From a virus: DNA of 32,884 nt. The notes under the pieces are model-generated. The model was not told where the DNA came from and made no database searches. It was given only the letters and a program-made list of their open reading frames with translations. Positions within the stretch are counted from its first letter, which is position 1. Each line of letters begins with the position of its first letter. Location of the stretch: the IMG/VR virus record IMGVR_UViG_3300025674_009551, positions 1-32,884 of that record; one strand, given 5' to 3'. Positions 1,519-31,997 of the stretch are shown here, in pieces. The position numbers were made by a program, and so were the translations under genes.

Positions 1519-3062
1519 TATTCAACCCTAAACTTTGAAGCTGCATCAGTGATGACGGTGTCAAATCCTGCTTTTTTAACCAAAAAGTCAAAAACATAAG
1601 TTCTTCCTTTCGGAAGCGAGTCAACATAAAACTCAAAATACATACCAGAAGAATCTGTAGAAAGCCTATTAGATCCGTGTATCGTATCAAAATCTATTAT
1701 AATATCCCCTGTTTGGAAGTCTCTAACTCTATAATACATCTGGTGGTAAATTTGACTTTTCTTTTCAATCGGTAATTTCGTATAAGAAATTGATCTATCT
1801 CTGTCTTCAGAAAAAACTTTTATTTTAATTATGTCACCTACTTTATATGAATCTTTAAGATTAGTCACCGTTACAAGTATATTCTGTTGAAAATTATCAA
1901 AAGCTGTTCTAGCATTTTTAGATATTTTAATTGAAGAAGAGAGATACGTGATCGTCTCATCAGAAGAAGACCAAATTTCATCAAACTTAATTGATCCAGA
2001 AGTCTCTATATGCTTTTTGAGGCTGTCGCCGTTTACGCTTTCTGAAGAGAAGCTGCTAATTGCAAAAGAAGAAGAATAAACTCCAGCAATTCTATTCGTA
2101 CCTCTAAGCGCTTGCGAAACGTTAAAAGTTTTCTTAAAGCTACCAGAAACAAGCTTTAAAATCATGACATCTTCACCTGTCAACTGTGTTGCACCTTCGC
2201 CTGATAATATATTGGACGGAACACCAAAATGATAATTGTTTAAGTACAAAGATCCTGTGACGTCAAAGATAAAATCTTCGTGATTGTCTTGTAAGGAGTC
2301 ATCATATTTAACAATAAGTTTAGGTCTTATTGCTGTGTTTGAAGAATTTCTAGAAGCAAACCTCTTGACAAAATATGTTTTTTCATTTTTTTCATAACTT
2401 CCTGAAAATGCTATCAGGAATCCATAATCAGGAATCTGACCTGAAATTGTTCCTGATACTATTCTGGTTACATCGATCAATAGATCTTCTTCGCCTGTTT
2501 TAAAATACTGTACAGGACTTAGCGATACATTACTTGTTCCGCTAGGCCCAGACAAAGTTCCGCTAACAATTACGTCAATAAATGCATCACTTAAGCTACC
2601 TGATGCAGTGGCGCCTGGTAAGTTCCAAAGTGTCGCATTGCCTCCCAGTGTAGAAGCTGTTATATAATTAACTGTGCCTATATCTCTAAAAGAGCTTACG
2701 TCATACCCAGAACCTTCATCAAAGCTTTGCGAAAGAGGAAAAAGAATTAAATCAAAATTTGAAGGTGTTGTCTGACCACCATAAACATCATGTAGTTTGA
2801 CATAACATTTAAAAGTATCACTATTAATATCTATTTTACCTTCTGACTTCATATTTGTTATAGTACCAATATCAAACTTTAAAAGCAAACGAGAAATTTC
2901 TGTTTGAGGATCTTCAGACCCCGAAATAGCTGTCTCATTATAAATCTTAAATAAATCTAAAGTCCCGGCCTGACCTACATTGGCATCGGTAGCTCTAAAA
3001 GAATTATTGATAATTTTATTGGTTATATATGTGTCTTTTGATGCTGATAATATTCTGTACAT
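1518..3062 (-). CDS. Baseplate-operon structural protein with DNRLRE-like N-terminal domain
   Basis: This 514-residue protein follows gp6 directly, its ATG overlapping the gp6 stop as TAATG. The N-terminus has the pattern of DNRLRE/CBM96-like beta-sandwich domains: DTYI near residue 10, a Gly/Asn-rich loop, then the strand SRLLLKFDI near residue 58. The same domain contains DLILFPLSQSFDEGSGYD near residue 104 and LLIDVTRIV near residue 194. Ser/Gly/Thr-rich strand repeats such as VSGTLSG and VSGTISG continue the beta pattern. The C-terminal third (from about residue 400) looks like a separate Ig-like or fibre-attachment domain. There is no signal peptide or membrane segment. It is probably a virion tail component. 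No T4 homologue is obvious, and the DNRLRE call rests on motif resemblance only. Confidence 0.75.
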   Translation of the reverse strand: MYRILSASKDTYITNKIINNSFRATDANVGQAGTLDLFKIYNETAISGSEDPQTEISRLLLKFDIGTITNMKSEGKIDINSDTFKCYVKLHDVYGGQTTPSNFDLILFPLSQSFDEGSGYDVSSFRDIGTVNYITASTLGGNATLWNLPGATASGSLSDAFIDVIVSGTLSGPSGTSNVSLSPVQYFKTGEEDLLIDVTRIVSGTISGQIPDYGFLIAFSGSYEKNEKTYFVKRFASRNSSNTAIRPKLIVKYDDSLQDNHEDFIFDVTGSLYLNNYHFGVPSNILSGEGATQLTGEDVMILKLVSGSFKKTFNVSQALRGTNRIAGVYSSSFAISSFSSESVNGDSLKKHIETSGSIKFDEIWSSSDETITYLSSSIKISKNARTAFDNFQQNILVTVTNLKDSYKVGDIIKIKVFSEDRDRSISYTKLPIEKKSQIYHQMYYRVRDFQTGDIIIDFDTIHGSNRLSTDSSGMYFEFYVDSLPKGRTYVFDFLVKKAGFDTVITDAASKFRVE

Positions 3063-4906
3063 TATGAAATTCTCCCAACTATGTCTTCATCTGGATACTT
3101 TATTTCAAATATTCCTCCAGTTGGCGGAAAAAGATAACCTCTTTCTATGTTGCGTTGAGGGTCATAGTGATAGCTAGAATAAACATTCTTGCCCTTAATT
3201 CCTGTATTATTATTAAATGTGATGCTATTAATTGACTCAACATCGGGTGTACTCAAAATAAGCATTTCAATTTCGCCTATTTTAATAGGTTGATCAATTT
3301 GAAAATTGTCAATTTTGAAATAGTTTTTAATTTTAGCATTGATAGCAGATATAACTATTGAAGATTTTGCATCTTGATTAATAGTTACTATATAATTTAT
3401 TCCAATATTAATAATCGATGCATCAAGTATATCAATAGCATCTGAAACTATTCTAAACTTGCTTAAGTATTTTGACACGTTTTCTTTTAGTATGTCTGGT
3501 GAAATAATTAATTTTCCAGCAGAATCTTTTGACAGAATATAGAGTTGTGCAGCTTGAGGATTACTTGGATTATCTCTAACAGATGCTCTATAAACTCTTC
3601 CAAAATTATTAGGAAGCGAATATACTCTTGCCAAGAGATCTTCTCTAGACACAACTCTATTCTGAGCGCTTCTATTTAAAAGTGCAATCTGTCTTAATTC
3701 TTCGATAGAGGGTTCATCTAAACCTCCCAAGACGCCTTTTTTGTTATTACAGACAGCAGACGTTCTAATAGAAGTTGCATTAGTATTTGTCATTCCTGCT
3801 GGAAACTCTGTTATTAAAGTTGTTACTTTTGTTATCTGATTTGCAGTTACGTTATGATTCAATCCTCCACCCACTCTGTAATAAACAGTCAAGGTAGTAT
3901 TTCTAGGGCTTATTCCTAATGTTTGTGTTCCTAAAAATGATTGAGGATCTATAGTAACTTTATTAAGAACTTTCTTATCACCGTAGAGCGTAATGGCATG
4001 ATCTGATGGATCTGGAATTACATCTTCATCAAAAGTATCTTCTCTTCCAGACCCAAACAAAAGAGTCGTTACGCCCTCTGTAGAAGTTCTACTTTTAACA
4101 AATCTCTTTGGCGCATGAAGCATCTGAATTCTTTCATTTGCTAATTCTCTATCTGCGCGGCTATTAGGAAGTCTTTTGAAAATTGTATTTTGTGTAAGTG
4201 ATTCTACTTCATAATAATCATCACCGTCTGAATCTGTAACCCTTACTATTTCATTTACATCAGACTCGTCTATCGTAATTGTTCTAAAAGGAACATATGC
4301 ATCTGATATTGTAAAATTTTTAGTTTTTAATTGCGAGCTTGTAACTAGTTCTTCTCTTGTTACTAAGAAATTAACAGGAACTCCGCTAATCGTTTGATTG
4401 ATTGTATATTCGGCGACCAGATCTCCTGCTGTATCAACCTCAGCAAAATTTAAATCATTTGCTAAGTAAAACTTAATGCCTGATTTTGAAGTAAAGATTG
4501 ATTCTGCTTTTATTATAGGCATCATGTTCTTGTTAGGTACATACTCTCCGTTTTGTAAAACCGCAGGAATAGTTAGAGTTATTTGAACATATCCTAACGC
4601 GGGAGATTTTCCTATAATTTCAACACCTGCTTCTCTAACTAATCTTTCAATATTTACAGTTTCTACAGCTTTTTCTAAAGAGTTTTCATTAAATTGATGA
4701 TCAAGATAATATGACGTGACATCACCTACATAAGCAGCAATATCAATAAACATTCCTGCTAGTGAAGCATCTGTTGTATCTAAAATTACACCATCATAAT
4801 GCTGTGATACATATCTTTTTAAGTCGTTTTTCAAGCTTTGAAAATCACGACTGTTATAAGACATGTCTTTTTGTTTGTTGATTTCTTTTTTTATATTTTT
4901 TGCCAT
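3062..4906 (-). CDS. 6: Baseplate wedge protein gp6 (baseplate J-like)
   Basis: This 614-residue protein resembles T4 gp6 (about 660 residues), the baseplate J-family protein that forms the inner iris ring of the baseplate together with gp25 and gp53. The N-terminus has the typical opening: SRDFQSLKNDLKRY, then DTTDASLAGMFIDIAAYVGD and a YLDHQFNE segment at about residues 20-75. The middle contains the J-like region with PSIEELRQIALLNRSAQNRV near residue 398, followed by REDLLARVYSLPNNFGRV. It starts with ATG 3 bases after the gp25 stop. The gp25-gp6 order and tight spacing match other T4-like phages. Recognition of the family is secure. The exact fold boundaries are my estimate. Confidence 0.9.
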   Translation of the reverse strand: MAKNIKKEINKQKDMSYNSRDFQSLKNDLKRYVSQHYDGVILDTTDASLAGMFIDIAAYVGDVTSYYLDHQFNENSLEKAVETVNIERLVREAGVEIIGKSPALGYVQITLTIPAVLQNGEYVPNKNMMPIIKAESIFTSKSGIKFYLANDLNFAEVDTAGDLVAEYTINQTISGVPVNFLVTREELVTSSQLKTKNFTISDAYVPFRTITIDESDVNEIVRVTDSDGDDYYEVESLTQNTIFKRLPNSRADRELANERIQMLHAPKRFVKSRTSTEGVTTLLFGSGREDTFDEDVIPDPSDHAITLYGDKKVLNKVTIDPQSFLGTQTLGISPRNTTLTVYYRVGGGLNHNVTANQITKVTTLITEFPAGMTNTNATSIRTSAVCNNKKGVLGGLDEPSIEELRQIALLNRSAQNRVVSREDLLARVYSLPNNFGRVYRASVRDNPSNPQAAQLYILSKDSAGKLIISPDILKENVSKYLSKFRIVSDAIDILDASIINIGINYIVTINQDAKSSIVISAINAKIKNYFKIDNFQIDQPIKIGEIEMLILSTPDVESINSITFNNNTGIKGKNVYSSYHYDPQRNIERGYLFPPTGGIFEIKYPDEDIVGRIS

Positions 4907-4909
4907 GTA

Positions 4910-5404
4910 TTATCCGCCTGCCTGTAATGTTACTTCTAAAGCTTGATTTGTTATTCTTGCACTAGGAATATCATATTCAATTCTTAGTCTAACTCTAGCC
5001 ATTCCTTTTTCATTAATTTGTTGTTTTTCGCCTTTGTCAAGCTCAACCTCAGAAATTTCTTTAATTTCTATACCTGCCATATATCTCTGCACAGCTGTTT
5101 TAATCCTGTCGGTCATTTCTTCTTGCACACCTGGGTTTGAAGATAACTCAAACAAAAGCGAAGATAAGTCAGCGCCAAAACCATACAAACCTAATCTTTC
5201 ACCGGCATTTGTCAAGATTAAATTTTTAAGATTATCTTTTACTTGATTAATTGGATCATCATGCATGTCAAAAATTTGACGATCTTGATTATTTGAAAGA
5301 GGAGTTATAATTCCAATATCTCTTTTTTTCTTTGTAATTTTGTCTTCAGCTATGGCTCTATCTGTAGCTTTTACACCCGAGCTTTTAAATTTAAAACTTG
5401 CCAT
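4910..5404 (-). CDS. 25: Baseplate wedge protein gp25 (GPW/gp25 family)
   Basis: This 164-residue protein belongs to the gp25/GpW family, small sheath-initiator baseplate proteins. T4 gp25 is 132 residues; this one has a longer charged N-terminus. The family hallmark lies near residues 60-90: a LILTNAGERLGLYGFG stretch followed by LSSLLFE. The C-terminus is a two-strand unit (RVRLRIEYDIPSAR) that pairs with sheath-like proteins in the family. The start is ATG at 5404 with a clear AGAGGA ribosome binding site. It lies between a hydrophobic tail protein and gp6, the usual gp25-gp6 pairing. Identification is firm. Confidence 0.9.
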   Translation of the reverse strand: MASFKFKSSGVKATDRAIAEDKITKKKRDIGIITPLSNNQDRQIFDMHDDPINQVKDNLKNLILTNAGERLGLYGFGADLSSLLFELSSNPGVQEEMTDRIKTAVQRYMAGIEIKEISEVELDKGEKQQINEKGMARVRLRIEYDIPSARITNQALEVTLQAGG

Positions 5405-12776: not shown

Positions 12777-13631
12777 TTAATCTTCAGAAACTGCACGACC
12801 TTTCATTTTTTCCCAGTCTCTATTTTTTCTTACCTCGTCATTCTTTTCTCTAGCAGACTCAAGAATTGTGGGATTTACGTTATTTTGAGTCATCAAGTAA
12901 ATCATTGCATCTAAGTCTTTTGGAAAGCAATGTCCGCCATATCCAAAGTCTCCATCAGGCCCTGGAACAGCAAGATGACTTTTTCCTATTCTTTTATCAA
13001 ACAAGGCGTATTCAGTTACTTTGTCATAATCAATTCCTAGCTCATTACAAATTTGATACATTTCATTAGCAAATGATACTTTGACAGATAGGAAATTATT
13101 AATAAAATACTTAACCATCTCGGCAGTTTGATATCCTGTCTTAATAATAGGAATATGTGGAAATGCTCTTCTAAACATAGTTTTAACTTGCGTCGTATAG
13201 GGGCGAGGGCCTCCTAAAATAATACGCGTCTGATTCTTAAAATCATCTATTGAATTAGCTTCTGTAAGAAATTCTGGGCTGAAAATAATATTAAGACTCT
13301 CAAAATCTTCATCAAGCTTTTGACATGTACCTGGAGAAACTGTTGACTTTATAACAACAATTGGATTCTTATTATAAACTGAAGCGATTGTGTTCAAAGT
13401 TGTAAGGGAACTTCTCACAATACTTAAATCACATTCTCCTGATTTTTTCATTGGTGTTGGTAGACACTGAAATATTATTTTACAATTCTGAACAATGCTC
13501 GCTGGCGTTGCCAACATTTCTTCTGGACATAAATCTTTTTTAAGATCGTATATAGAAACTGAATAGAAGTTTTTAAGACCTTCCCTAATTGCTGTTCCTA
13601 CAAAACCTTGGCCAATTATTCCTATATTCAT
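12777..13631 (-). CDS. UDP-glucose/GDP-mannose 6-dehydrogenase-like, lacking the C-terminal domain
   Basis: A 284-residue NAD-dependent nucleotide-sugar dehydrogenase, which would oxidise a UDP- or GDP-sugar to the uronic acid. The NAD-binding Rossmann motif is GQGFVG at residues 7-12. Other family blocks are CLPTPMKKSGECDLS (residues 56-70), VVIKSTVSPGTC (92-103) and FSPEFLTEANS (117-127), then K174 and N178. The catalytic cysteine is C235 in YGGHCFPKD. Typical enzymes are about 390-450 residues; this one stops just after the central dimerisation helix and lacks the C-terminal nucleotide-sugar-binding domain. All chemistry residues are present, so it may be a compact phage version rather than a broken gene. 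It starts the AT-rich sugar block next to WbqC-like and methyltransferase genes. Confidence 0.85.
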   Translation of the reverse strand: MNIGIIGQGFVGTAIREGLKNFYSVSIYDLKKDLCPEEMLATPASIVQNCKIIFQCLPTPMKKSGECDLSIVRSSLTTLNTIASVYNKNPIVVIKSTVSPGTCQKLDEDFESLNIIFSPEFLTEANSIDDFKNQTRIILGGPRPYTTQVKTMFRRAFPHIPIIKTGYQTAEMVKYFINNFLSVKVSFANEMYQICNELGIDYDKVTEYALFDKRIGKSHLAVPGPDGDFGYGGHCFPKDLDAMIYLMTQNNVNPTILESAREKNDEVRKNRDWEKMKGRAVSED

Positions 13632-15641: not shown

Positions 15642-16591
15642 GCTAATATCCTTTCATAAGCTGATTGACAAGCAAAATCAATAGTCAGGTATTTTTTACC
15701 ATCTCTATAACAACTTTTTGATAAGCTATCATTATCTCTATTTAAAAATTGATTACATGCTGAATAAAACATTTCTCTATTTTTATTCTGATATATTGTA
15801 CAATACGGTTTGCAATACGTATTTATTAAAACTAAGTCATTAATTATGCAAGGTGTTCCTGCTCTAATTGACTCAAAAATAACTCTAGGCCCAGGATCAA
15901 AAGGTTGTGATGGTCTGGGGTCTGTTGTTAACATTGTTAGTTTTGAATTAAGAAACTCATAAGCCAGTTCATTTCTCGTCAATAATTTAAAATCACTTTC
16001 AATGCCTTTAGATGCAAGCTTTGAATGTAGATAGTTTGCATATTGTTGATTGTATATTTTTCCGGCAAATAAAAAGCTATATTCTTTAAAAGATTCAGCA
16101 TCAATTAAGTCAACAATTTCTTTTTGATTTTTATCACTTCCAATTGATGCCGGAACTATTATTTGATTTTTTCTATTCTTCCATTCAATAAAGTTTTTAT
16201 CAAAAACTTCTTGCATTTCTTTAACAGGTGCTTTGATTAATTCATTTTCTTCAAAAAAGAAATCACAATTTTTTTTATTATAATCAAAACCCATTGGTGT
16301 AACATTTATAACAATCGTATTGTTCGAACGATATTGATACCCATAAGACTGAAATGCATTATTTTTTGTAATTATTACATCAAATTTTATATTTTTTAAT
16401 AATTCTTTGTTGACAGGTTCAGCTTTTTTATCAATACCTTTGTGTATTGAACAAAAATTTCTTTTTCCTTTTTCAAACAAAGAAAAAACTTTTAAATTTT
16501 TCTCTGCAAAATAGTCAGGTAAAGTTTTTGCTTCAATTTGATTATTGTCAACTGGGAAATGTAAAAAAAGAAAGTTAAGATTTTTATTCAT
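15629..16591 (-). CDS. GT-B-fold glycosyltransferase-like protein
   Basis: A 320-residue protein that looks like a divergent GT-B glycosyltransferase. The C-terminal donor-binding half has DPGPRVIFESIRAGTPCIIN near residue 233, resembling the conserved Glu plus A-x-G-x-P block of GT4-type enzymes. The start of that half is marked by IIVPASIGSDKNQKEIV and FLFAGKIYNQQYANYL. The N-terminal domain is short and poorly conserved, beginning NLNFLFLHFPVDNN. No specific family can be named. It overlaps the HAD gene upstream by 8 bases and the deacetylase gene downstream, so it belongs to the same translation-coupled run. The substrate is unknown. Confidence 0.65.
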   Translation of the reverse strand: MNKNLNFLFLHFPVDNNQIEAKTLPDYFAEKNLKVFSLFEKGKRNFCSIHKGIDKKAEPVNKELLKNIKFDVIITKNNAFQSYGYQYRSNNTIVINVTPMGFDYNKKNCDFFFEENELIKAPVKEMQEVFDKNFIEWKNRKNQIIVPASIGSDKNQKEIVDLIDAESFKEYSFLFAGKIYNQQYANYLHSKLASKGIESDFKLLTRNELAYEFLNSKLTMLTTDPRPSQPFDPGPRVIFESIRAGTPCIINDLVLINTYCKPYCTIYQNKNREMFYSACNQFLNRDNDSLSKSCYRDGKKYLTIDFACQSAYERILACLN

Positions 16592-17006
16592 TTTTCTTCT
16601 GGACCTGGTTATTAATTTCTGTCAGGCACGACTTCCAATCAAAAAATCTAATGGCACGATCATCAATATAAAAAATGGCTCTTGGTTTTTCTGCTGTCAC
16701 ATCCTTTACGAATTTTGACATGTCATACTTTTCTAGCCACTCCCAAATTAACCGAATGCCTGTTTTTCCATTGACTAAAGGTCTGTCGCTTCTAGCTTTT
16801 GCACTGTATATTACAATTTCATATTTTTTAGATAGTATCTCTAGAGCATTATAAGATCCGGGAACTGGATCGTCATAAATAGTTCCATCATGATATCCTT
16901 TTGTACACGCGTGGATGACACCATCGAAATCTACACCTATTTGTTTAAACTCGTCCTCGAGCAATGTAGGCCTATTATCATTTTCATTGTATATTTTACT
17001 AATCAT
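16584..17006 (-). CDS. HAD-superfamily phosphatase-like protein
   Basis: A 140-residue HAD hydrolase. Motif I is VDFDGVIH with nucleophile D26 and D28. Motif II is the Ser of VIYSAKAR (S68). Motif III is K107 in TAEKPRA, and motif IV is the paired D115-D116 in FYIDDRAIRF. All catalytic residues are present. It is small and appears to lack a large cap, like polynucleotide-kinase-type or capsule-locus HAD phosphatases. In this context it could dephosphorylate a sugar phosphate, as KdsC does for Kdo-8-phosphate. A nucleotide phosphatase is the alternative. It starts at ATG 17006, overlapping the SDR gene stop by 8 bases. Confidence 0.75.
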   Translation of the reverse strand: MISKIYNENDNRPTLLEDEFKQIGVDFDGVIHACTKGYHDGTIYDDPVPGSYNALEILSKKYEIVIYSAKARSDRPLVNGKTGIRLIWEWLEKYDMSKFVKDVTAEKPRAIFYIDDRAIRFFDWKSCLTEINNQVQKKNE

Positions 17007-17688
17007 TAATATCCCTTAAGTCAAAAAAGCTTCCACTTTTTTGATCTGCAAGCATGTCTAAATTTTTAATTATTTTATCAGCAATTTCTTTTGATGATGG
17101 ATTTTTTCCGTATAAATCTTTAAATTTTTTAATTGAAGAAAATTTCGCTGTAGGGTTTTTGACAATTTGATCTTGCATTTTTGTTTGAATTATACCAGGT
17201 GCTAAACTTAAAAAATTTATATTTGTATTTTCTATAGCGTAGCATCTAATAAGTTGATTTAAAGCTGCCTTAGATAAACAATAAGAAAGCCAGCCGTCAT
17301 ATGCTTTAATAGAAGCACCTGATGATATCGCAATAATATTCTTAACTTCGATTTCAGAATTTAAAAAAATATCAATAATCAGTTTGTTTGCAAATAAATT
17401 GACTTGTAAAGCTTCTTGAAGATTTTTATTTTTTATCTTCGTAGCTTTTTCAATATCTCCTAAAATTCCTGCATTTAAAAATAAATAGTCTATAGGTTTA
17501 TCAAAATTATCAACAACTATTTGATTAAAAGTATTTTTAATATTTTCATCTGAATTGAAGTCACAAATATAATTGGTTTCTTTAGATTTGGATCTACTAA
17601 TACCTATTGTTTCATGGCCTAATTCTAGAAATTGATTTACTAGTGACTTTCCTAAGCCGGAGCTAGTTCCTGTTATTATTACTTTCAT
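16999..17688 (-). CDS. Short-chain dehydrogenase/reductase (SDR)
   Basis: A 229-residue classical SDR that uses NAD(P)H for reversible oxidation or reduction of a hydroxyl or keto group. Residues 7-14, TGTSSGLG, form the coenzyme loop. NAG at 72-74, S122/S123, and the catalytic Y136-x3-K140 (YCLSK) are all intact. An APGIIQT block follows near residue 188. The start ATG at 17688 overlaps the aldolase stop as ATGA, so the two are tightly coupled. It probably acts on the product of the neighbouring aldolase-like enzyme or on a nucleotide-linked sugar. The substrate cannot be told from the sequence. Confidence 0.85.
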   Translation of the reverse strand: MKVIITGTSSGLGKSLVNQFLELGHETIGISRSKSKETNYICDFNSDENIKNTFNQIVVDNFDKPIDYLFLNAGILGDIEKATKIKNKNLQEALQVNLFANKLIIDIFLNSEIEVKNIIAISSGASIKAYDGWLSYCLSKAALNQLIRCYAIENTNINFLSLAPGIIQTKMQDQIVKNPTAKFSSIKKFKDLYGKNPSSKEIADKIIKNLDMLADQKSGSFFDLRDIND

Positions 17689-18626
17689 TTTTGTATTATC
17701 TTTTCCATATTAAAAACATCTTTATCTATGCCTTTTATGTTCTTGCAAATTTCATCAAATAATTCAATTGTAATTTTATTTTTTTCTGCATGGTATGCAT
17801 AATAATCAGAAATACTATGCTTAGCAGTAATTACTCCATAAGGACTTTCTCTCATGGTAAATTTTTTCTCATTGCGAGCAATAAAACTCATTAAATTGAT
17901 TAATTCTTTATCTTCAATAACATTTTCTAATCTTAGATTTCCAACGCCTTTTCCCATTCCTCTTGTAGATGCATCGAAGCCTGTGAAACCAATACTCTTA
18001 AGCATTTTAAAATTACTATAAGCTTTCCCTCTATGGTCATGCAAGTGCATGCCCACCTTTATATTTCTTTCTCTTAAAACACTAACTGCATCTTTAAATC
18101 TTTTGCCGTCTAGTTCGAAATCAAGCGCACCGTGTGTATCTGCAAAGTAAACATAGTCTAGACTATAATTTTTTACTTTTTCTGCAACAAAATCTATTTC
18201 TGCTTTGCTATAATTTGAAATATTAAAAACATTAAGACTTACTTTTAAGCCTGTCTTATCTTTTAATCGTTGAATAAAAGGCAATGCATCATCAATATCA
18301 TTTTTTCTACTGCAAACTCTTATCATTCCAACAACATTTTGATTTTTATCTGGATATTCATTTAAATCTTTTTGACAATAATGATAATCTATCATTACAG
18401 CTACTTTCTTTTTTGGATTATCTCCAATGATTTCTACTAATTTTTCCATATTAAGATTATAAAATCTATTTTGACTCTTTGCTGTTTGCTTCCAATAACC
18501 CATTTCAACATAAGTTACGCTGCTGATGGAAGAAATTAGGTTGTAATATTCTCTTGCAACTTCTACTGGCCAGTCAAAATTAACGGCATGGCCGCCGTCT
18601 CTAAGGGTGACGTCAATCAATTCCAT
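17685..18626 (-). CDS. HMGL/DRE-TIM-type aldolase-like enzyme
   Basis: A 313-residue TIM-barrel protein of the DRE-TIM metallolyase family (HMG-CoA lyase, isopropylmalate synthase, 4-hydroxy-2-oxovalerate aldolase). The signature VTLRDGG is at residues 6-12. YFADTHG lies near 162, the metal-binding HLHDH at 194-198, and FDASTRGMGKGVGN near 217. These enzymes join or cleave carbon-carbon bonds next to a carboxylate or keto acid. The fold is certain, the substrate is not. Beside a CMP-sugar synthetase it may make or trim a keto-acid sugar. The frame reaches TTG 18632, but ATG 18626 has an excellent GAGGAG site 6 bases upstream, so it is the start. It overlaps the synthetase gene by 14 bases. 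Confidence 0.8.
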   Translation of the reverse strand: MELIDVTLRDGGHAVNFDWPVEVAREYYNLISSISSVTYVEMGYWKQTAKSQNRFYNLNMEKLVEIIGDNPKKKVAVMIDYHYCQKDLNEYPDKNQNVVGMIRVCSRKNDIDDALPFIQRLKDKTGLKVSLNVFNISNYSKAEIDFVAEKVKNYSLDYVYFADTHGALDFELDGKRFKDAVSVLRERNIKVGMHLHDHRGKAYSNFKMLKSIGFTGFDASTRGMGKGVGNLRLENVIEDKELINLMSFIARNEKKFTMRESPYGVITAKHSISDYYAYHAEKNKITIELFDEICKNIKGIDKDVFNMEKIIQK

Positions 18627-19308
18627 TTGCAACTCCTCTATAAACTATTTTTGCAAAATTTAAATCTTGTAAAGTATCAATTTCTATACCTTCGATATTG
18701 TCAATCTCATAAAGAAAGTTATTTTCTCCAAACCTATTCATGTTTTTCATAAATGTTTTCTTTGTGAATATAAAAAATGCACCATTTGAAAAACAAATCT
18801 TATCTAAGTCTTGTGTCCGCTGAACAACATTTGGATTAAAATTTATTGGGTTATCAAAAGATTTTAACCAGGCAAAGTCTTGTTTTGATGTAACAGAATG
18901 GACTGTGTCAAAACCTTCTTCTAAGATCTTAGCTGCACTGAAAATTGTTTTTGGTTTTAAAAAGGGTGAGGTTACATGTGTCAAGACAATTACCTCATTA
19001 TCATCATCTACAAAATTAGATAGAAAATTTTCAACCATTAGAAGTGCCGGGCTTAGACTATTATTTGGGTCATTCTCCATATCTATAAATTTTTTGTCTC
19101 TAAGATAAGCTGTTACACCAGACAGTTTTTCATCGCTATTGCACTCATCTATAACTTCTTGACTATCAGTATCTATAAAAATGTCAACATTAGAAAAGGC
19201 ATTGACTTCGTAGATTAAATGTTTCCATAGAGGCAATCCTCCAATCATCTTAAAATTCTTTCTTGGTACTCGAGATGAATCATTTTTAATATATGTAAAT
19301 ATTTTCAT
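18613..19308 (-). CDS. CMP-sugar synthetase (acylneuraminate cytidylyltransferase-like)
   Basis: A 231-residue GT-A-fold nucleotidyltransferase similar to NeuA/KdsB. These enzymes use CTP to activate sialic acid, Kdo or related keto-acid sugars. The N-terminal signature is IKNDSSRVPRKNFK followed by GGLPLW, with the usual Arg-x-Pro-x-Lys-Asn element at residues 13-18. FIDTDSQEVID follows at about 44, and LTHVTSPFLKP near residue 107 matches the conserved Thr-Ser-Pro block. The C-terminus contains EGIEIDTLQDLNFA, typical of the family end. It starts at ATG 19308, three bases after the YjbQ-like gene stop. The sugar substrate is unknown; no NeuB- or KdsA-type synthase is in the window. Confidence 0.85.
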   Translation of the reverse strand: MKIFTYIKNDSSRVPRKNFKMIGGLPLWKHLIYEVNAFSNVDIFIDTDSQEVIDECNSDEKLSGVTAYLRDKKFIDMENDPNNSLSPALLMVENFLSNFVDDDNEVIVLTHVTSPFLKPKTIFSAAKILEEGFDTVHSVTSKQDFAWLKSFDNPINFNPNVVQRTQDLDKICFSNGAFFIFTKKTFMKNMNRFGENNFLYEIDNIEGIEIDTLQDLNFAKIVYRGVANGID

Positions 19309-19311
19309 AAC

Positions 19312-19767
19312 TCACCCATTTAAAAATGTTAAAGATATTTCTCTATCTCTATTTGGATCAAGCTCAATAACAAAAACACTCTGCCATTTCCCAAGAATAG
19401 GTTTTCCGTCAATAACAGGAATTGATTCAGAAGTATTAAAGAATAAACTTCTAATATGACTATGACCATTAATGGGTTCGTCAATCGGGCAATCATTTCT
19501 AAGAGAAATTAAGTCATGAAGATATTTAATATTTTTATGATCCCCTTCAGGCTCTTTCCATTTTGGTGCCATTTTATCTAGAAAAAATCTTACATCAGCC
19601 TTATGCAATAACTCGTCCTCTAGAATTTTAATACAACATGTTGTATGCTTTGAAAATATGTTAACTAAACCATTTTTGTTTTCTTGAGAAGAACAAAAAT
19701 TAATAACTTCTTTTGTTATGTTTGTAAATAATTTATCTGTTTTTATTTGTAGTATTTGTCTTTGCAT
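19312..19767 (-). CDS. YjbQ family protein (UPF0047)
   Basis: A 151-residue protein of the YjbQ/UPF0047 family, small trimeric beta proteins; some members show weak thiamine-phosphate synthase activity but the true role is unclear. The conserved blocks are FSKHTTCCIKILEDE at residues 38-52, the INGHSHIRSLFFNTSESIPV run at about 99-118, and LGKWQSVFVIELD at about 125-137. His, Trp and Glu residues of these blocks are present. The frame begins with TTG 19785, but a promoter at 19799-19827 would start transcription near 19792, too close for that start, so ATG 19767 is chosen. It is the first gene of the promoter-led cassette and lies just before the CMP-sugar synthetase, an unusual place for YjbQ. 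Confidence 0.85.
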   Translation of the reverse strand: MQRQILQIKTDKLFTNITKEVINFCSSQENKNGLVNIFSKHTTCCIKILEDELLHKADVRFFLDKMAPKWKEPEGDHKNIKYLHDLISLRNDCPIDEPINGHSHIRSLFFNTSESIPVIDGKPILGKWQSVFVIELDPNRDREISLTFLNG

Positions 19768-19798
19768 CTTTTCTTTATTTACCAATTGTTTAATTAAT

Positions 19799-19827
19799 AT
19801 TATAACAGCTTTTTAATTAAATTACAA
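19799..19827 (-). promoter_or_regulatory. Sigma-70-type promoter upstream of the YjbQ/CMP-sugar cassette
   Basis: On the minus strand, TTGTAA (-35, 4 of 6 consensus bases) is followed after 17 bases by TATAAT (-10) with an extended TG, read as TGTTATAAT at 19799-19807. The -35 box overlaps the stop codon of the GT29-like gene. It would give a transcript starting near 19792 and covering the YjbQ-to-HAD run. This is one of the best promoter matches in the window. Confidence 0.5.
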
Positions 19828-20574
19828 AGAAAAGTATTCTTTCTTATTAAAACTTTCCATTTCTAGTATTTTTTTCATATGAGTATCAGGAAAAATCAAT
19901 TCTTTATTTTGTAAGTACAAGTTTTTAATAAATTCCCACTGATTTTTCTGAATGTGTCTTTTGGAATTTAATGCATTTTCTTCGATTTGACTTATTGACA
20001 AGTTTTTTTCATAATTTTCTTTTAAGTTTTCTATTCCTTCGCGGTATTCTTCAATCCAGCCATCTAGTAAAAAGCTAAAACCATATAAAGACATTTTTTT
20101 AGGTTTCATTGAAAACATGTGAAATATGGCTACGATTCCAGTATTTGGTTTACACTTAATTTGACTAGATAGAAAATTGTAAAAATTATAATCCACCATT
20201 TGTAAGCTTAATAAATCATTAAGTTTTTCTACATTTTGAAGATTTACTAAATTTGAAAGCTGATTTCCGTTTGCCAAACCACTCATGCTTGAATTAGGTA
20301 AACAAAAAACATTTTCAACACCTGCTTTTTTCCATTTTTCAGGATTAATAAATCCAAATTTTGGGCCACTAGATCCAGCGGGATCTTCTAAAAGGTGATG
20401 ATATAAAACATTAGCTTTCTTTCCTACAATTTCTTGCATAGCAGGATTAATAATATCAATCCCTTTGTTGATTCTTACTACAATATCATGTGAATCTATT
20501 TCATTTCCAAATTTAAAATTTTTTAAATATTTTGCTGATCCTACTAGGGCAACAGTTTTATTTTTAATGTCCAT
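19822..20574 (-). CDS. GT29 (sialyltransferase)-like glycosyltransferase
   Basis: A 250-residue protein resembling family GT29, the CMP-sialic-acid-dependent sialyltransferases. The L-sialylmotif-like region is VALVGSAKYLKNF followed by EIDSHDIVVRIN, residues 8-35. The S-motif-like element is KPNTGIVAIFHMFSM near residues 142-156, with SLYGFSF after it. A distal His and Glu (RHIQKNQWEFI near 206) fit the third motifs. The usual donor is CMP-linked acidic sugar, matching the CMP-sugar synthetase two genes downstream. The frame opens at ATG 20598, but ATG 20574 has AGGA 6 bases upstream and clears the neighbour, so it is preferred. There is no membrane anchor, unlike eukaryotic members. Confidence 0.75.
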   Translation of the reverse strand: MDIKNKTVALVGSAKYLKNFKFGNEIDSHDIVVRINKGIDIINPAMQEIVGKKANVLYHHLLEDPAGSSGPKFGFINPEKWKKAGVENVFCLPNSSMSGLANGNQLSNLVNLQNVEKLNDLLSLQMVDYNFYNFLSSQIKCKPNTGIVAIFHMFSMKPKKMSLYGFSFLLDGWIEEYREGIENLKENYEKNLSISQIEENALNSKRHIQKNQWEFIKNLYLQNKELIFPDTHMKKILEMESFNKKEYFSL

Positions 20575-20588
20575 GTTTATTCCTGATA

Positions 20589-21356
20589 TTAATACCATAC
20601 AGCTTGAGATATTAAAATTTTTTCATATTCTTCAATATCAGCTAAGTTATACTTAAACTTTCCATGATGAACTTCACTATCATAATGCAAGTGATAAATT
20701 CTAGGAGACATATGTTGTTCTCCAAATTCATGCTTAAATCTATCTTGTTTTTCTCTATTTGCTTTGCTTCTAATATTGTATTCAAAAGGAAAATGATGAA
20801 TTCTAACGTCACTATTCCAGAGTGCTATTCTTAGACTCACTTGATCCCATCCATTAGTTTCCCTAAAGTATTTGTAAAAATACTCTCTCCACATATTGAG
20901 AAAATTACTTGTTGATGCTGAATCGTTAAAAGCCATAATACCACCATTGACTTCAGAAAATGAATAAGGTATCGCAGCGTATTCCGGAACTATATTAGAA
21001 TATTTTGTTCTCTTTCTTGCATAGTCATTTGTAACAGCTACATCAAATCTTTCTAAAACTTCAAACATATCTGTTATGTTTCTAACAACTATTGTGTCTG
21101 AATCCATGTACACAGTATGTCTAAAAGGCGTCTGGGATATGAAATCTACTTTTGCTCTAATGTGCCTGGGTTCTATTTTTGCATATACATCTACTAAACC
21201 ATCAAAATCAGAAGTTCTTTCTCTATCAGTGTAAAGAGCTACGGGCTCATTATTAAATTTCTTAAGTGTTTTTATAGACATTAAGGCTTCTTTTGTGAAA
21301 GATTCTCCGAAGGCTATGTAAAGAAAACCTCTATCAGCTAACTTTTGAACAGACAT
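20589..21356 (-). CDS. GT-A-fold (GT8-like) glycosyltransferase
   Basis: A 255-residue protein with a GT-A nucleotide-sugar transferase fold. The metal-binding DxD motif is DSD at residues 85-87 in HTVYMDSDTIV. An N-terminal strand, GFLYIAFGESFTKEAL, is followed by SIKTLKKFNNEPVALYTD, as in GT8-type and related nucleotide-diphospho-sugar transferases. FSEVNGGIMAF near residue 133 and NGWDQVSLRIAL near residue 167 match the acceptor-side blocks of the family. The C-terminus is rich in His (YHLHYDSEVHHGKF), which resembles the metal-binding tail of GT8 enzymes. It lies directly after a GT-B gene without a gap. Donor and acceptor are unknown. Confidence 0.75.
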   Translation of the reverse strand: MSVQKLADRGFLYIAFGESFTKEALMSIKTLKKFNNEPVALYTDRERTSDFDGLVDVYAKIEPRHIRAKVDFISQTPFRHTVYMDSDTIVVRNITDMFEVLERFDVAVTNDYARKRTKYSNIVPEYAAIPYSFSEVNGGIMAFNDSASTSNFLNMWREYFYKYFRETNGWDQVSLRIALWNSDVRIHHFPFEYNIRSKANREKQDRFKHEFGEQHMSPRIYHLHYDSEVHHGKFKYNLADIEEYEKILISQAVWY

Positions 21357-22358
21357 TTATTCCTCTCTTAATTTTTGTATTTTTTGTAATAATTTATTTG
21401 CGTGTATATGCGGATTGTAATGTTTTTCAAACATCTTTTTGTTACTTTCTGCAATTTCATTTCTTAAATTGTGATCAGAAATCTTTTTAAATTCTCTGAT
21501 GTAGCTTAGGTGATCGTGTGCACATATAGTATAATCAGTTTTAGACATAAGTTCAAAACTACTTGGACTTATATCATGTATAACAGGAATTCCTAATTGA
21601 TAAAAAACATAAGCTCTTCCAGCATTTGTCTTATTTTTCATTCTTAGAAAATAGTCTGTATCATAAAGACCAAAATCAACAGAAGTTATTTTTTGTATAT
21701 CTTTTGAAAATAGACGAATATCAATTACGTTAGGAACTAATCCTATGTCGCAAGATTGAACTATGTCTACAAAATTTTCATCGTAACTAAACATTTTTAT
21801 ATCTACATTAGGTCTTCCAGCTTTCCATTTAAATTCTTTATTTCCTGTGATTACTTTTATTTTTACTTTTTTAATATTTTTGTCAAAGAATTCTATTGCT
21901 TCTTTTAAAAAAGGTTCAAATTTAAACAAGTGAGGATAATGACCGTGAAAACAAAAATCTAAGGTGTCTTTCTCTTCATGTTTTTTAATTTTAATCGATT
22001 CAAACTTTCTTTCTATTAAAGGGTAGATAAAAACATTATCATAGTAGCTCATAGATATGTATTCTTCAGGAGAACCTACAATTACAAAATCAATTGAGTT
22101 GTTGAAGAAGTTACAAGGAATATTTATAGCTCCAATTGTAGCTTCTGGTAAATGTTTTTTAATTTCATCTGCAGACTCAAAAGCTGATTTGCATAGTATT
22201 ATGACATCTACATCTTTTTCTAATATTAATTCTTTTACACTTGTAAATATTTTTGAATCACATTTAATTTCATTTAAAGTTCTAGAAAGATCTCTTACCC
22301 AAATTCTATAAGATCCAGAATTTTCATTAGGACTGAATGTTAAAAAATTAATTTTCAT
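21357..22358 (-). CDS. GT-B-fold glycosyltransferase-like protein
   Basis: A 333-residue protein that looks like a GT-B glycosyltransferase. It opens with the Rossmann strand INFLTFSPNENSGSYRIWV. A long linker leads to a second domain beginning TLDFCFHGHYPHLFKFEPFL near residue 134. The donor-site region has NKTNAGRAYVFYQLGIPVIH near residue 243, with AGR-x4-YQLGIPV resembling the GT4-type nucleotide-sugar pocket, but the E-x7-E pattern is not clear. No narrower family can be assigned. The start ATG at 22358 overlaps the methyltransferase gene by 11 bases. The substrate is unknown. Confidence 0.65.
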   Translation of the reverse strand: MKINFLTFSPNENSGSYRIWVRDLSRTLNEIKCDSKIFTSVKELILEKDVDVIILCKSAFESADEIKKHLPEATIGAINIPCNFFNNSIDFVIVGSPEEYISMSYYDNVFIYPLIERKFESIKIKKHEEKDTLDFCFHGHYPHLFKFEPFLKEAIEFFDKNIKKVKIKVITGNKEFKWKAGRPNVDIKMFSYDENFVDIVQSCDIGLVPNVIDIRLFSKDIQKITSVDFGLYDTDYFLRMKNKTNAGRAYVFYQLGIPVIHDISPSSFELMSKTDYTICAHDHLSYIREFKKISDHNLRNEIAESNKKMFEKHYNPHIHANKLLQKIQKLREE

Positions 22359-23616
22359 TTACTTCAAATCTAACCTTTGTTAAAACTTGGTGACTTGGCT
22401 GGCCACTTGCAGTCAATCCCACATCCCATATTTTAAATCCGTTTGAAGAATTTATAAGCGTAGCTATATCTTTAAAACAGCCAAATCTTACATCAAAATC
22501 ATCAAATACCCAAATAGGCGCTTTGTCTTTAGTCTGTTTGTTGATTAAATTAACAACATCTGTTATGACTGTATTTTCATCGTGAAGCCCATCAATATAG
22601 AACATTTCAATATCTTGTATACTGCTGTCTTCACCTAATTCTTTACTAGTTGCTTGATAATAGATACATTCATTTTCGTATTCTGCAATGTGTGTATTAC
22701 TTCTAACATCTCTCGGGTCACAGCTATAAACTTTCCCTTTTATTTCTTTTGCATATTCTCCAAAACTAAAGAATTGCCAGCCCTCAGCTGTTCCTACTTC
22801 AAGAATGTTTTTTACATCATGCATTTCAGCAATTCTAGTAAGATAATAGGCTCTTTTTTTAAGACCTTCCAATATGACTAGTCTTTTTTCTTGATCAAGT
22901 ATGTTAGCAGTATCTAGCTTTTTAGTTTGTATAGGAAGATTAATGTCATTCCACAATCTTTCATATGCTTCTGGTAAATCTATTGAGCTTAAATTACCGT
23001 ATTTTTCAAAAAGATTAGAAAGAATAGCGTCTTTTCTAAACAAAAGTTCTACGTTCATTCCTGCAAAATTAGGTATACCGTTATCATTAATTTGTCTAAC
23101 TGATAAACAGTAACTTCTATCAAAAAGAGTGACAATGTCAAAAAGTGGATTATTTATTTCAAAAACTGTATATTCATCTTGATTTAGTCCTAACTGTATC
23201 TGTAAATAAAAAAGACCATCATTCTTTAAAACTCTTTCAATTTCTGAAATCATCTTTTTAGGATCTATTGAATGATCCATAATGTTTGTATAGACAAAAT
23301 CAAAAGATTCATCTTCAAAATCTAAGTTGTGAATGTCTCCCTTTAAAACATAGGGCTCGTGAGGAACTATGTCTATTCCTATTGCTTCTTCTACACCTAT
23401 TTCTTTGAGCGCAACGACTTCTTGTCCTGTTCTAGCACCCAAACAAAGACATTTTTTGTCAGGAGTTAGAAAGTTTTTCAGCTTACTAAATTCTTGTTTA
23501 AATCCGTTAATCTTTAATCCCCACTCTTCTCCTAACCATTTTTCTCTCCTAACAGGATCTAAGGTTTTTTCTTTTTGATGATTAATATAACTTTCATAAT
23601 CTTTGTATTCTTTCAT
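22348..23616 (-). CDS. Double-domain SAM methyltransferase (two MTase domains fused)
   Basis: A 422-residue protein with two class I methyltransferase domains. Domain 1 (about residues 45-165) has CLCLGARTGQEVVALKEIG as motif I, GIDIVPHEP after it, and FDFVYTNIMDHSIDPKKMI with VLKNDGLFYLQI as later motifs, like Methyltransf_11. Domain 2 (about 250-400) has ILEVGTAEGWQFFSFGEYA as motif I, VYSCDPRDVRS, and FYIDGLHDENTVITDV, like the Methyltransf_24 group. Both keep recognisable SAM loops. Such fusions could methylate two positions of one sugar, or one half may be structural. It follows the GT4 gene with an ATGA overlap and precedes a GT-B gene. Confidence 0.75.
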   Translation of the reverse strand: MKEYKDYESYINHQKEKTLDPVRREKWLGEEWGLKINGFKQEFSKLKNFLTPDKKCLCLGARTGQEVVALKEIGVEEAIGIDIVPHEPYVLKGDIHNLDFEDESFDFVYTNIMDHSIDPKKMISEIERVLKNDGLFYLQIQLGLNQDEYTVFEINNPLFDIVTLFDRSYCLSVRQINDNGIPNFAGMNVELLFRKDAILSNLFEKYGNLSSIDLPEAYERLWNDINLPIQTKKLDTANILDQEKRLVILEGLKKRAYYLTRIAEMHDVKNILEVGTAEGWQFFSFGEYAKEIKGKVYSCDPRDVRSNTHIAEYENECIYYQATSKELGEDSSIQDIEMFYIDGLHDENTVITDVVNLINKQTKDKAPIWVFDDFDVRFGCFKDIATLINSSNGFKIWDVGLTASGQPSHQVLTKVRFEVNEN

Positions 23617-30653: not shown

Positions 30654-31997
30654 TTAAATGAGTTTTGCTGCTACTGCTGATAAATATGATCTTTCTCCCT
30701 TTTTTAGCTTGATATGTGCAGCAACTTTCTCATTTTTAAATTTTTCAGCAACAATTGTAAGACCATTAGACAAAGAATCTATGTATGGAGTATCAATTTG
30801 ATCTGTGTCACCCAACAAGACAATCTTTGAATTTTCACCAATTCTTGTTATGACTGTCTTAATTTCGTGAATTGTGGCATTTTGTGCCTCATCAAAAATC
30901 AAGAATGTGTCGCTAAATGTTCTGCCTCTCATATAGGAAAGTGGAGCAATTTCAATCTTTCCTTTCTCCATCATCATCTCAAAATAAGTAAGATCCTTAT
31001 CTTTGAAGGCATGCCTAAAGTTGTCCATAATAGGTGACATCCAAGGCGTCATCTTTTCTTTTAAGTCACCTGGCAAGAATCCAATATCTTTACCTACAGG
31101 CTGCACGTTTCTTGTTATAACAATCCTGTCATATTTTCCCTCATTAAGACCATGAACAGCTGTCATTAAAGTAATGAAAGTCTTTCCTGATCCTGCCAGC
31201 CCAGTGATTGTTACTAAATCTATCTTTTCATCTACTAGCGCATTTAAAGCGTATAGTTGCTCTCTGTTTCTAGAAGAAAAAGAATAAACAGACTTAAAGT
31301 CTTTTTCATTTTTAAGCTTGTGAATCCTGCCTTGCTTATAAACGCCTAAGAAAGAAGATCTATCGTGTCTAATGCATAAAAATTCATTTTCATGAAATTC
31401 TCTTTCAATATAGTCACTAACGTCTTCACAAAGTTCTTTTATTTCATCTTCAGTTAGATTTTCATTGTAAAGCATATCGATTATTTCTTTTGAGTCTACT
31501 TCAATATCCAAGTAACCCTTGTACATTTCATCATCAGACTCTAGGACTCTATCTCTGTAATAATCTTCTGCTTTTATACCTAAAGCATCACATTTTACTC
31601 TAAAGTTGATGTCTTTTGTGACAACAACTGTCTTTCTGTCAGGATTATTCTTTTTTGTATATAGAGCACAAGCAATTATCTGATTATCAGCACTTGACTT
31701 TTCTAAAAACTGTGGTATTTTATCAAATCCATTTAGTTCTACTCTTATTGTCTGATCATTGTTACGTATCTTGACTCCTTCATGAAGATTACCTTCTTCT
31801 CTTAAATCATCAAGATATCTGTTTACATATCTTGCTGCTTCTCCAACAACACCTGTCTTGTCTTTGAATCTATCTAGCTCATCTAATACTACAATTGGTA
31901 TAACAACATCATTCTCAGGAAAGGAATGGATTGATGCTTTATCATAAAGTAAAACATTAGTATCTATCACAAAAAGCTTTCTAGTGTTTTCTGACAT
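30654..31997 (-). CDS. phoH: PIN-PhoH ATPase (PhoH2-type)
   Basis: A 447-residue protein with an N-terminal PIN nuclease domain and a PhoH ATPase domain, as in PhoH2/YlaK. PIN acidic residues are D12 (FVIDTNVLL), E40 (VVLDELD), D104 (SSADNQII) and D129 (VTKDINFR). The ATPase has Walker A GLAGSGKT at 266-273, Walker B LIFDEAQ at 366-372, and sensor-like GDTDQID at 396-402. PhoH2 proteins elsewhere show RNA helicase and RNase activity. phoH is a common marine-phage gene, but its role in infection is unclear. It starts at ATG 31997 behind AGGAG, in a divergent promoter region shared with the plus-strand gene. Confidence 0.9.
   Translation of the reverse strand: MSENTRKLFVIDTNVLLYDKASIHSFPENDVVIPIVVLDELDRFKDKTGVVGEAARYVNRYLDDLREEGNLHEGVKIRNNDQTIRVELNGFDKIPQFLEKSSADNQIIACALYTKKNNPDRKTVVVTKDINFRVKCDALGIKAEDYYRDRVLESDDEMYKGYLDIEVDSKEIIDMLYNENLTEDEIKELCEDVSDYIEREFHENEFLCIRHDRSSFLGVYKQGRIHKLKNEKDFKSVYSFSSRNREQLYALNALVDEKIDLVTITGLAGSGKTFITLMTAVHGLNEGKYDRIVITRNVQPVGKDIGFLPGDLKEKMTPWMSPIMDNFRHAFKDKDLTYFEMMMEKGKIEIAPLSYMRGRTFSDTFLIFDEAQNATIHEIKTVITRIGENSKIVLLGDTDQIDTPYIDSLSNGLTIVAEKFKNEKVAAHIKLKKGERSYLSAVAAKLI

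Follow-up and report, generated by a model that had tools for sequence, protein, structure and literature searches.

A conserved phage cassette pairing a CMP-sugar synthetase with a DRE-TIM aldolase and YjbQ

A fixed set of four genes carried by marine phages probably serves to build and activate a sugar resembling sialic acid by way of a carbon-joining enzyme other than the textbook one. The set consists of YjbQ, a CMP-sugar synthetase, a DRE-TIM aldolase and an SDR, in fixed order. It lies in a window of 32,884 nucleotides (the whole stretch of DNA analysed; positions 1-32,884 of IMG/VR record IMGVR_UViG_3300025674_009551), which is a fragment of a viral genome. The closest known kind is the CMP-nonulosonate/Kdo pathways. 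We favor, with some reserve, the reading that a pyruvate aldolase lets the cassette produce a 2-keto-3-deoxy sugar acid activated with CMP, a donor resembling those of Kdo or nonulosonates.

The locus has six intact ORFs, all on the minus strand, and two flanking genes:

16584..17006, minus strand: HAD-like small phosphatase (phrog_1238, 3.4e-12); accessory, outside the core
16999..17688, minus strand: SDR oxidoreductase (PF00106); last gene of the core cassette
17685..18632, minus strand: DRE-TIM (HMGL-like) class II aldolase (PF00682); TTG start, likely true ATG at 18626
18613..19308, minus strand: CMP-sugar synthetase of the NeuA/KdsB/PseF superfamily (PF02348)
19312..19785, minus strand: YjbQ/UPF0047 (PF01894); first gene of the core cassette; TTG start, alternative ATG at 19767
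19822..20598, minus strand: GT29 sialyltransferase-family protein (PF00777)
20589..22358, minus strand: two flanking glycosyltransferase-type genes; order kept beside GT29 in HpcH-type phages

The initial annotation had described the six genes as one tightly packed unit ending at 20574. The ORFs and their order stand, while 20574 is an internal ATG of the GT29 gene, whose ORF runs to 20598. The operon is supported too; the core genes in the window are spaced by +3, -20 and -4 bases. The true unit is the four-gene core; GT29 belongs to the locus, and the HAD gene is peripheral, being present among the DRE-TIM loci only in the window, L001 and L010. The families given to the aldolase, synthetase, UPF0047, GT29 and SDR proteins hold, with Pfam scores above the curated cut-offs.

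The four genes occur in the same order in all 13 aldolase-bearing IMG/VR contigs found, which represent about nine lineages, the most distant at 35-40% identity. When the aldolase and YjbQ each served for an independent scan, both yielded the identical set of 13 contigs. This recurrence in every aldolase-bearing virus contig found is beyond chance. The divergence of the four core genes is correlated (r 0.76-0.96), and in 9 of 12 copies the synthetase and aldolase genes share a stretch of 8-26 bases. Among the INPHARED cultured phages there is no match to the window synthetase, the window GT29 or the L053 synthetase, and a single weak match to the aldolase (24.8%). A scan of one cellular genome collection with strict motifs, whose reach largely leaves out bacterial chromosomes, returned only two archaeal MAG contigs (L008 and L009). 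L008, from a Lokiarchaeota bin, is 97% identical in the synthetase and 88% in the aldolase to viral L011, and L009 has phage-like neighbour genes. Within the reach of that scan a cellular origin was rejected, and both contigs are probably mis-binned phage DNA. Otherwise, 59 genomes of the same archaeal phylum gave only weak DRE-TIM matches.

The aldolase scores 57.5 bits against HMGL-like PF00682 (cut-off 29). The residues Arg11, Asp12, His196 and His198 are invariant in 11 of 11 copies, so that the metal-binding Asp and HxH motif are kept. The initial annotation had allowed that structural matches might point to an unrelated substrate. The nearest PDB entries by both sequence and fold (AlphaFold model, pLDDT 83) are 3dxi, a putative aldolase from Bacteroides (BVU_2661), and then the pyruvate-dependent 4-hydroxy-2-oxovalerate aldolase 1nvm. 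The better match, 3DXI, carries no functional assignment, a point against the sugar-acid model. Since 3DXI and the 4-hydroxy-2-oxovalerate aldolases are its closest solved relatives, the enzyme is most likely to use pyruvate and not PEP, and it is probably a class II, pyruvate-dependent aldolase. It shares the DRE-TIM fold, the metal-binding Asp and the two His with DmpG/MhpE/BphI (TIGR03217), the nearest characterised structures, but is only 15-19% identical to them, lacks the acetaldehyde dehydrogenase partner and scores 48.4 bits against the equivalog model (cut-off 286). His15, which we take to be the catalytic-base His matching His21 in DmpG, is present in the window and is replaced by Phe in L004, L005, L009 and L050, which counts against the sugar-acid model.

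In support of the sugar-acid model, a bacterial polysaccharide locus on a Leisingera plasmid likewise has an HMGL-type aldolase next to a CMP-ulosonate synthetase and a HAD. The aldolase catalytic domain-containing protein of this locus and 3DXI are about 22-27% identical to the phage aldolase. Unlike the phage cassette, the locus has no YjbQ and its synthetase is of the KdsB type. A sialyltransferase-like domain fused to the Leisingera aldolase was considered and rejected, as its C-terminal half matched the phage MptE-like profile with an hhalign E of 0.063 and a probability of 0.9%. Literature searches on aldolase/CMP-synthetase pairings gave nothing relevant.

The synthetase scores 50.1 bits against CTP_transf_3 PF02348 (cut-off 22.6), and its profile matches the CMP-Neu5Ac synthetase 1qwj (8e-17) and NeuA enzymes. 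It falls far below the equivalog cut-offs for PseF (62 vs 205.7 bits) and kdsB (19 vs 155 bits). The nucleotide and metal residues Ser11, Lys17, Asn18 and Asp211 are invariant across the cassette copies. The P-loop Arg is replaced by Lys8 in all copies, another point against the sugar-acid model.

YjbQ scores 93 bits against UPF0047 PF01894 (cut-off 27) and 78.8 bits against TIGR00149 (cut-off 67.75). It is the constant partner in the cassette (13 of 13 contigs), with His47, His90, His110 and Trp134 invariant in 11 of 11 copies. The phage protein therefore passes the family cut-off and keeps the His residues, and what sets it apart is its tie to CMP-sugar genes. All that is known of YjbQ is a weak thiamin-phosphate synthase activity (Morett 2008, as cited in PMC11551756) and the rescue of pdxB by its overexpression, and the family is labelled as being of "unknown function" (PMC7954711). 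The phage cassette seems to give YjbQ/UPF0047 its first functional context. The SDR scores 87 bits against adh_short PF00106 (cut-off 26.6), and Gly7/11/13, Ser122/123, Tyr136 and Lys140 are invariant in 9 of 9 copies. The HAD protein matches no Pfam family and scores 17.3 bits against the EcbF/BcbF capsule phosphatase model TIGR01689 (cut-off 162). In other phages, SIS+HAD fusions lie beside the synthetase and HpcH genes, and their HAD half is a homologue of this protein (57-67%).

The GT29 protein scores 32.1 bits against PF00777 (cut-off 23), and a profile built with its phage relatives matches ST3Gal1 (2wml, 5.6e-11). Most relatives have a GT29 or sialyltransferase-like gene in the slot upstream of the cassette. 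The slot also holds a GT29 in L020/L021 (2.7e-27), as it does in HpcH-type loci, and elsewhere MptE-like or weakly GT29-like proteins; the model of one of the latter (the A8 family) was set aside at pLDDT 51.6. Judging from these matches, the GT29 protein is the probable user of the CMP donor. In plant RG-II, the likely CMP-Kdo transferase is a GT29 enzyme (PMC12168206).

No NeuB (PF03102), DAHPS/KdsA (PF00793) or HpcH (PF03328) was found in the window, for NeuB and KdsA in agreement with the initial annotation, and no NeuB/KdsA synthase was found in 7 of 9 relatives searched. As the window is a fragment, the rest of that genome may yet encode a synthase, which tells against the sugar-acid model. 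The other two (L002/L003) encode a separate NeuB away from the cassette, which also counts against the sugar-acid model. The nonulosonate route uses a NeuB-type synthase, an optional phosphatase, NeuA and a sialyltransferase. Like the sialic, legionaminic and pseudaminic acid pathways, the phage set has in one operon a NeuA-superfamily synthetase and a transferase of the GT29/sialyltransferase-like type, but a DRE-TIM aldolase, YjbQ and SDR take the place of the NeuB/SAF synthase. The PEP-dependent NeuB or KdsA that marks a classical nonulosonate or Kdo locus is thus absent from the window. The Kdo pathway (KdsD-KdsA-KdsC-KdsB) follows the same scheme, in which a 3-deoxy-2-keto acid is formed by condensation, dephosphorylated and activated with CMP, but in the phages KdsA is replaced by pyruvate-type aldolases, and a SIS isomerase is missing from the window set.

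Other phages with the same flanks have alternative content, namely GT29, CMP synthetase, an HpcH/HpaI pyruvate aldolase and SIS+HAD, which parallels the Kdo pathway. The flanking genes at 20589..22358 are 35-61% identical and in the same order in L053, L058, L059, L061, L064, L078 and L079. In L052 the nearest synthetase from outside the cassette is fused to a DAHP synthase and adjoins a DHQ synthase and an SDR; this suggests that L052 may make a carbocycle, and it is a further point against the sugar-acid model. Three unrelated carbon-carbon-bond enzymes therefore pair with one synthetase family, and the clades of the synthetase tree split by partner enzyme. The conserved cassette, the HpcH/HpaI swap and the DAHPS fusion strengthen the proposal of the initial annotation that the role of NeuB/KdsA is filled by a DRE-TIM aldolase.

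In the proposed pathway, the metal-dependent DRE-TIM aldolase (4-hydroxy-2-oxovalerate/3DXI type) would condense pyruvate with an aldehyde and so do the work of the PEP-dependent synthase. YjbQ would provide or reshape the aldehyde, or work on the aldol product, and the SDR would fix the oxidation state at one carbon. The HAD, where present, would strip a phosphate. The NeuA-type synthetase would then join the keto acid to CMP, and the neighbouring GT29 would move the sugar from the CMP donor onto a glycan, a task that in relatives would fall to a sialyltransferase-like/MptE-like protein. The sequences show the family memberships, the kept catalytic residues, the obligate linkage of the genes and the exchange of the aldolase for HpcH/HpaI or a DAHP-synthase fusion next to one synthetase family. 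From these we infer in what order the reactions run, that pyruvate is the donor substrate, that the product is a sugar and where it ends up. More tentatively, this may be a distinct phage route to a CMP-3-deoxy-2-ulosonic acid, in which the DRE-TIM pyruvate aldolase, together with a YjbQ devoted to the route, takes over from the PEP synthase. A single synthetase-transferase pair would then be combined with interchangeable carbon-carbon modules (DRE-TIM, HpcH/HpaI or DAHPS), and the sugar would be previously undescribed, possibly of the C7 heptulosonate type.

It is unlikely, though less so than the other alternatives, that the acid activated by the synthetase is carbocyclic or no sugar at all, with the aldolase, YjbQ and SDR making another acid (2-oxo or of the cyclitol type) that is donated from its CMP ester. 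The arrangement in L052, the many small acids that are DRE-TIM substrates and the lack of a sugar isomerase in the cassettes fit such an acid; however, a GT29/sialyltransferase-like transferase adjoins almost every copy, and the SIS domain and HAD phosphatase of the sister loci are as expected for sugar phosphates. The synthetase could also activate a standard ulosonic acid made by the host, with the aldolase serving as a lyase that degrades or recycles host sugar, or in a scavenging branch. Pyruvate aldolases are reversible, and host supply is compatible with a genome fragment and with the NeuB of L002/L003, but this is improbable since the aldolase goes strictly with its synthetase subclade, and two other carbon-carbon enzymes take its place elsewhere, including a DAHP synthase, which is biosynthetic. 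Slightly less probable again is a division in which the synthetase works with GT29 in one pathway and YjbQ, the aldolase and the SDR modify a different sugar, or the acceptor, of the same glycan. The locus has many further glycan genes, and the synthetase and GT29 are found elsewhere without DRE-TIM, YjbQ or SDR, yet the gene overlaps, the co-divergence and the match between synthetase clade and aldolase type argue for one pathway. A chance gathering of neighbours is very improbable, because the island between the baseplate genes and PhoH is glycan-dense but the order is fixed in all aldolase-bearing contigs found, across lineages whose flanking genes differ.

If the pyruvate-aldolase reading is true, such a route would be added to the CMP-ulosonic acid pathways, and one pathway step could be filled by three unrelated carbon-carbon-bond enzymes. 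It would also give a testable pathway role to YjbQ/UPF0047, a widespread (universal) protein family. That phages have GT29 transferases which look functional, along with synthesis of the matching donor, points to acidic sugars as a decoration of virions or of infected-cell surfaces in marine systems.

The window, a single IMG/VR virus record 32,884 bases long, is part of a T4-like phage genome. A glycan island on the minus strand lies between the baseplate genes and a PhoH-like gene, and includes the six genes of interest:

3062-4906, baseplate J/gp6
4910-5404, gp25
16584-17006, minus strand, HAD phosphatase
16999-17688, minus strand, SDR
17685-18632, minus strand, DRE-TIM aldolase
18613-19308, minus strand, CMP synthetase
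19312-19785, minus strand, YjbQ
19822-20598, minus strand, GT29 transferase
30654-31997, PhoH-like gene

The baseplate protein shares about 32% identity with its counterparts in Flavobacterium phage immuto and Microcystis phage Mel-JY01. The initial annotation had proposed that the six genes form a CMP-sugar pathway. All six are intact and contiguous, and the SDR, aldolase, CMP synthetase, YjbQ and GT29 score above their curated family cut-offs. The outline is largely right, but it missed a four-gene unit with a constant YjbQ and overrated the HAD. Elsewhere in the window, a UDP-glucose/GDP-mannose dehydrogenase (12777-13631) of only 284 aa has the N-terminal and central domains without the C-terminal domain, and the virus contig L001 has a similarly short one. 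The protein at 22348-23616 joins tandem Methyltransf_11 and Methyltransf_24 domains, and its homologue in the phage locus L067 is divided between two ORFs.

When the aldolase was searched against 2.9 million virus contigs, its relatives shared 87% and then 39-49% identity with the window copy. The order YjbQ - CMP synthetase - aldolase - SDR is constant wherever the full locus was read. An aldolase-profile scan and a separate YjbQ-profile scan returned an identical set of 13 contigs, or about nine lineages with near-identical pairs merged; the window and two MAG contigs are additional. In 9 of 12 copies the synthetase gene shares 8-26 bases with the aldolase gene, and the four cassette proteins diverge in step, their pairwise distances correlating at 0.76-0.96. 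The HAD, whose sole family support is the phage family phrog_1238, is found after the SDR in the window, L001 and L010 alone and is therefore accessory. The two MAG contigs, L008 (JABXKB010000183.1, Lokiarchaeota) and L009 (NZCQ01000021.1, Pacearchaeota), have the appearance of mis-binned phage DNA; in the synthetase, L008 shares 97% identity with a 163-kb viral contig. Bacterial parallels lie on plasmids and lack YjbQ: a Leisingera polysaccharide locus (HMGL aldolase - KdsB - HAD) and an Acuticoccus locus (HpcH/HpaI aldolase - acylneuraminate cytidylyltransferase - PGDH - HAD). The remaining plasmid aldolase matches have unrelated neighbourhoods.

The aldolase residues Arg11, Asp12, His196 and His198 are invariant (n=11 copies) and align with the DmpG residues that bind substrate and metal. 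Residue 15, which aligns with the catalytic base in DmpG, is His in most copies. It is Phe in a subclade (L004, L005, L009 and L050) despite intact metal ligands and cassette. The AlphaFold model (pLDDT 83) matches 3DXI best, followed by 4-hydroxy-2-oxovalerate aldolases, which are pyruvate enzymes; the curated model for the latter excludes the protein from that family (48 vs 286 bits). The closest solved relative of the synthetase is the CMP-Neu5Ac synthetase 1qwj (8e-17), with the P-loop Arg replaced by Lys in all copies. YjbQ retains His47, His90 and His110, and the SDR retains its Ser, Tyr and Lys.

A synthetase-profile scan gave 55 loci, including a sister group of phage loci with the layout GT29 - synthetase - HpcH/HpaI aldolase - SIS+HAD fusion (L053, L058, L059, L061, L064, L067, L078 and L079). 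These resemble the Kdo pathway with a pyruvate aldolase in place of KdsA. The L053 synthetase has no match among cultured phages. Window flanking genes (25923, 23613, 22348, 21357, 20589 and the GT29) keep the same order in several HpcH-type phages, and in L067 the genes beyond the slot (15629, 14991 and 13638) match as well; the difference is confined to the central cassette. In virus locus L052 (8001-9497), a synthetase 46% identical to that of the window makes up one fusion protein with a DAHP synthase (361 bits against a cut-off of 268), a phage link between CMP activation and DAHP formation; MptE-like, SDR and complete DHQ synthase genes lie just upstream. A DAHPS-family gene also adjoins the synthetase in L062 and L071. 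A maximum-likelihood tree of 48 synthetases unites all 14 DRE-TIM-linked copies in a group that includes or adjoins L052 (100/97), with the HpcH-linked copies as its sister (95/92); 3 of the 17 members of the latter have no HpcH within 4 kb. The type of partner enzyme therefore follows synthetase ancestry. From pyruvate or PEP, HpcH/HpaI enzymes and DAHP synthases make 2-keto-3-deoxy acids, and the simplest reading is that the DRE-TIM enzyme likewise forms such an acid. Another 3DXI-like DRE-TIM aldolase, on the 128-kb virus contig L032 (4354-6996), precedes two ORFs that by eye resemble transketolase halves; this is a separate kind of phage aldolase locus and has no CMP synthetase.

The claim that the window has no NeuB or KdsA holds: no NeuB, DAHPS/KdsA or HpcH family member was found in this 32,884-base fragment, nor in its longer relatives L001 (123 kb), L010 (80 kb), L011 (163 kb) or L012 (99 kb), records that are perhaps incomplete. 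L002 and L003 do carry a NeuB whose C-terminal part weakly matches a cupin; it lies downstream of the cassette by a few kb, which places two ulosonate-type systems within one glycan island.

The transferase slot lies upstream of YjbQ, adjoining it or, in some copies, one gene apart. It holds a GT29 in the window and in L020/L021 (2.7e-27), a weak GT29 relative (family A8) in L010 and L011, and an MptE-like protein in L002, L004, L005 and L050; the L005 protein also weakly matches a sialyltransferase phrog. Searched as a profile, the phage GT29 family hits ST3Gal1 at 5.6e-11. Bacterial GT29 proteins are found in marine Alteromonas, Idiomarina and Loktanella (PMC5811610). The plant GT29 protein MGP2/RCKT1 is likely the CMP-Kdo transferase of RG-II (PMC12168206), so a GT29 need not imply sialic acid.

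From homology and linkage, the most likely route is that YjbQ would help provide an aldehyde, which the DRE-TIM aldolase would condense with pyruvate to a 3-deoxy-2-keto acid. The SDR would adjust one carbon, the HAD, where present, may dephosphorylate, the synthetase would form the CMP donor and the GT29 would transfer the activated group. Overexpressed yjbQ bypasses pdxB in E. coli (PMC7954711). This and the DAHPS fusion hint weakly at a tetrose as the acceptor aldehyde, in which case the product would be a C7 acid; that is a guess, and the DHQ synthase near the L052 fusion calls for caution over it. The predicted phage system is a CMP-ulosonic acid pathway of a new form.
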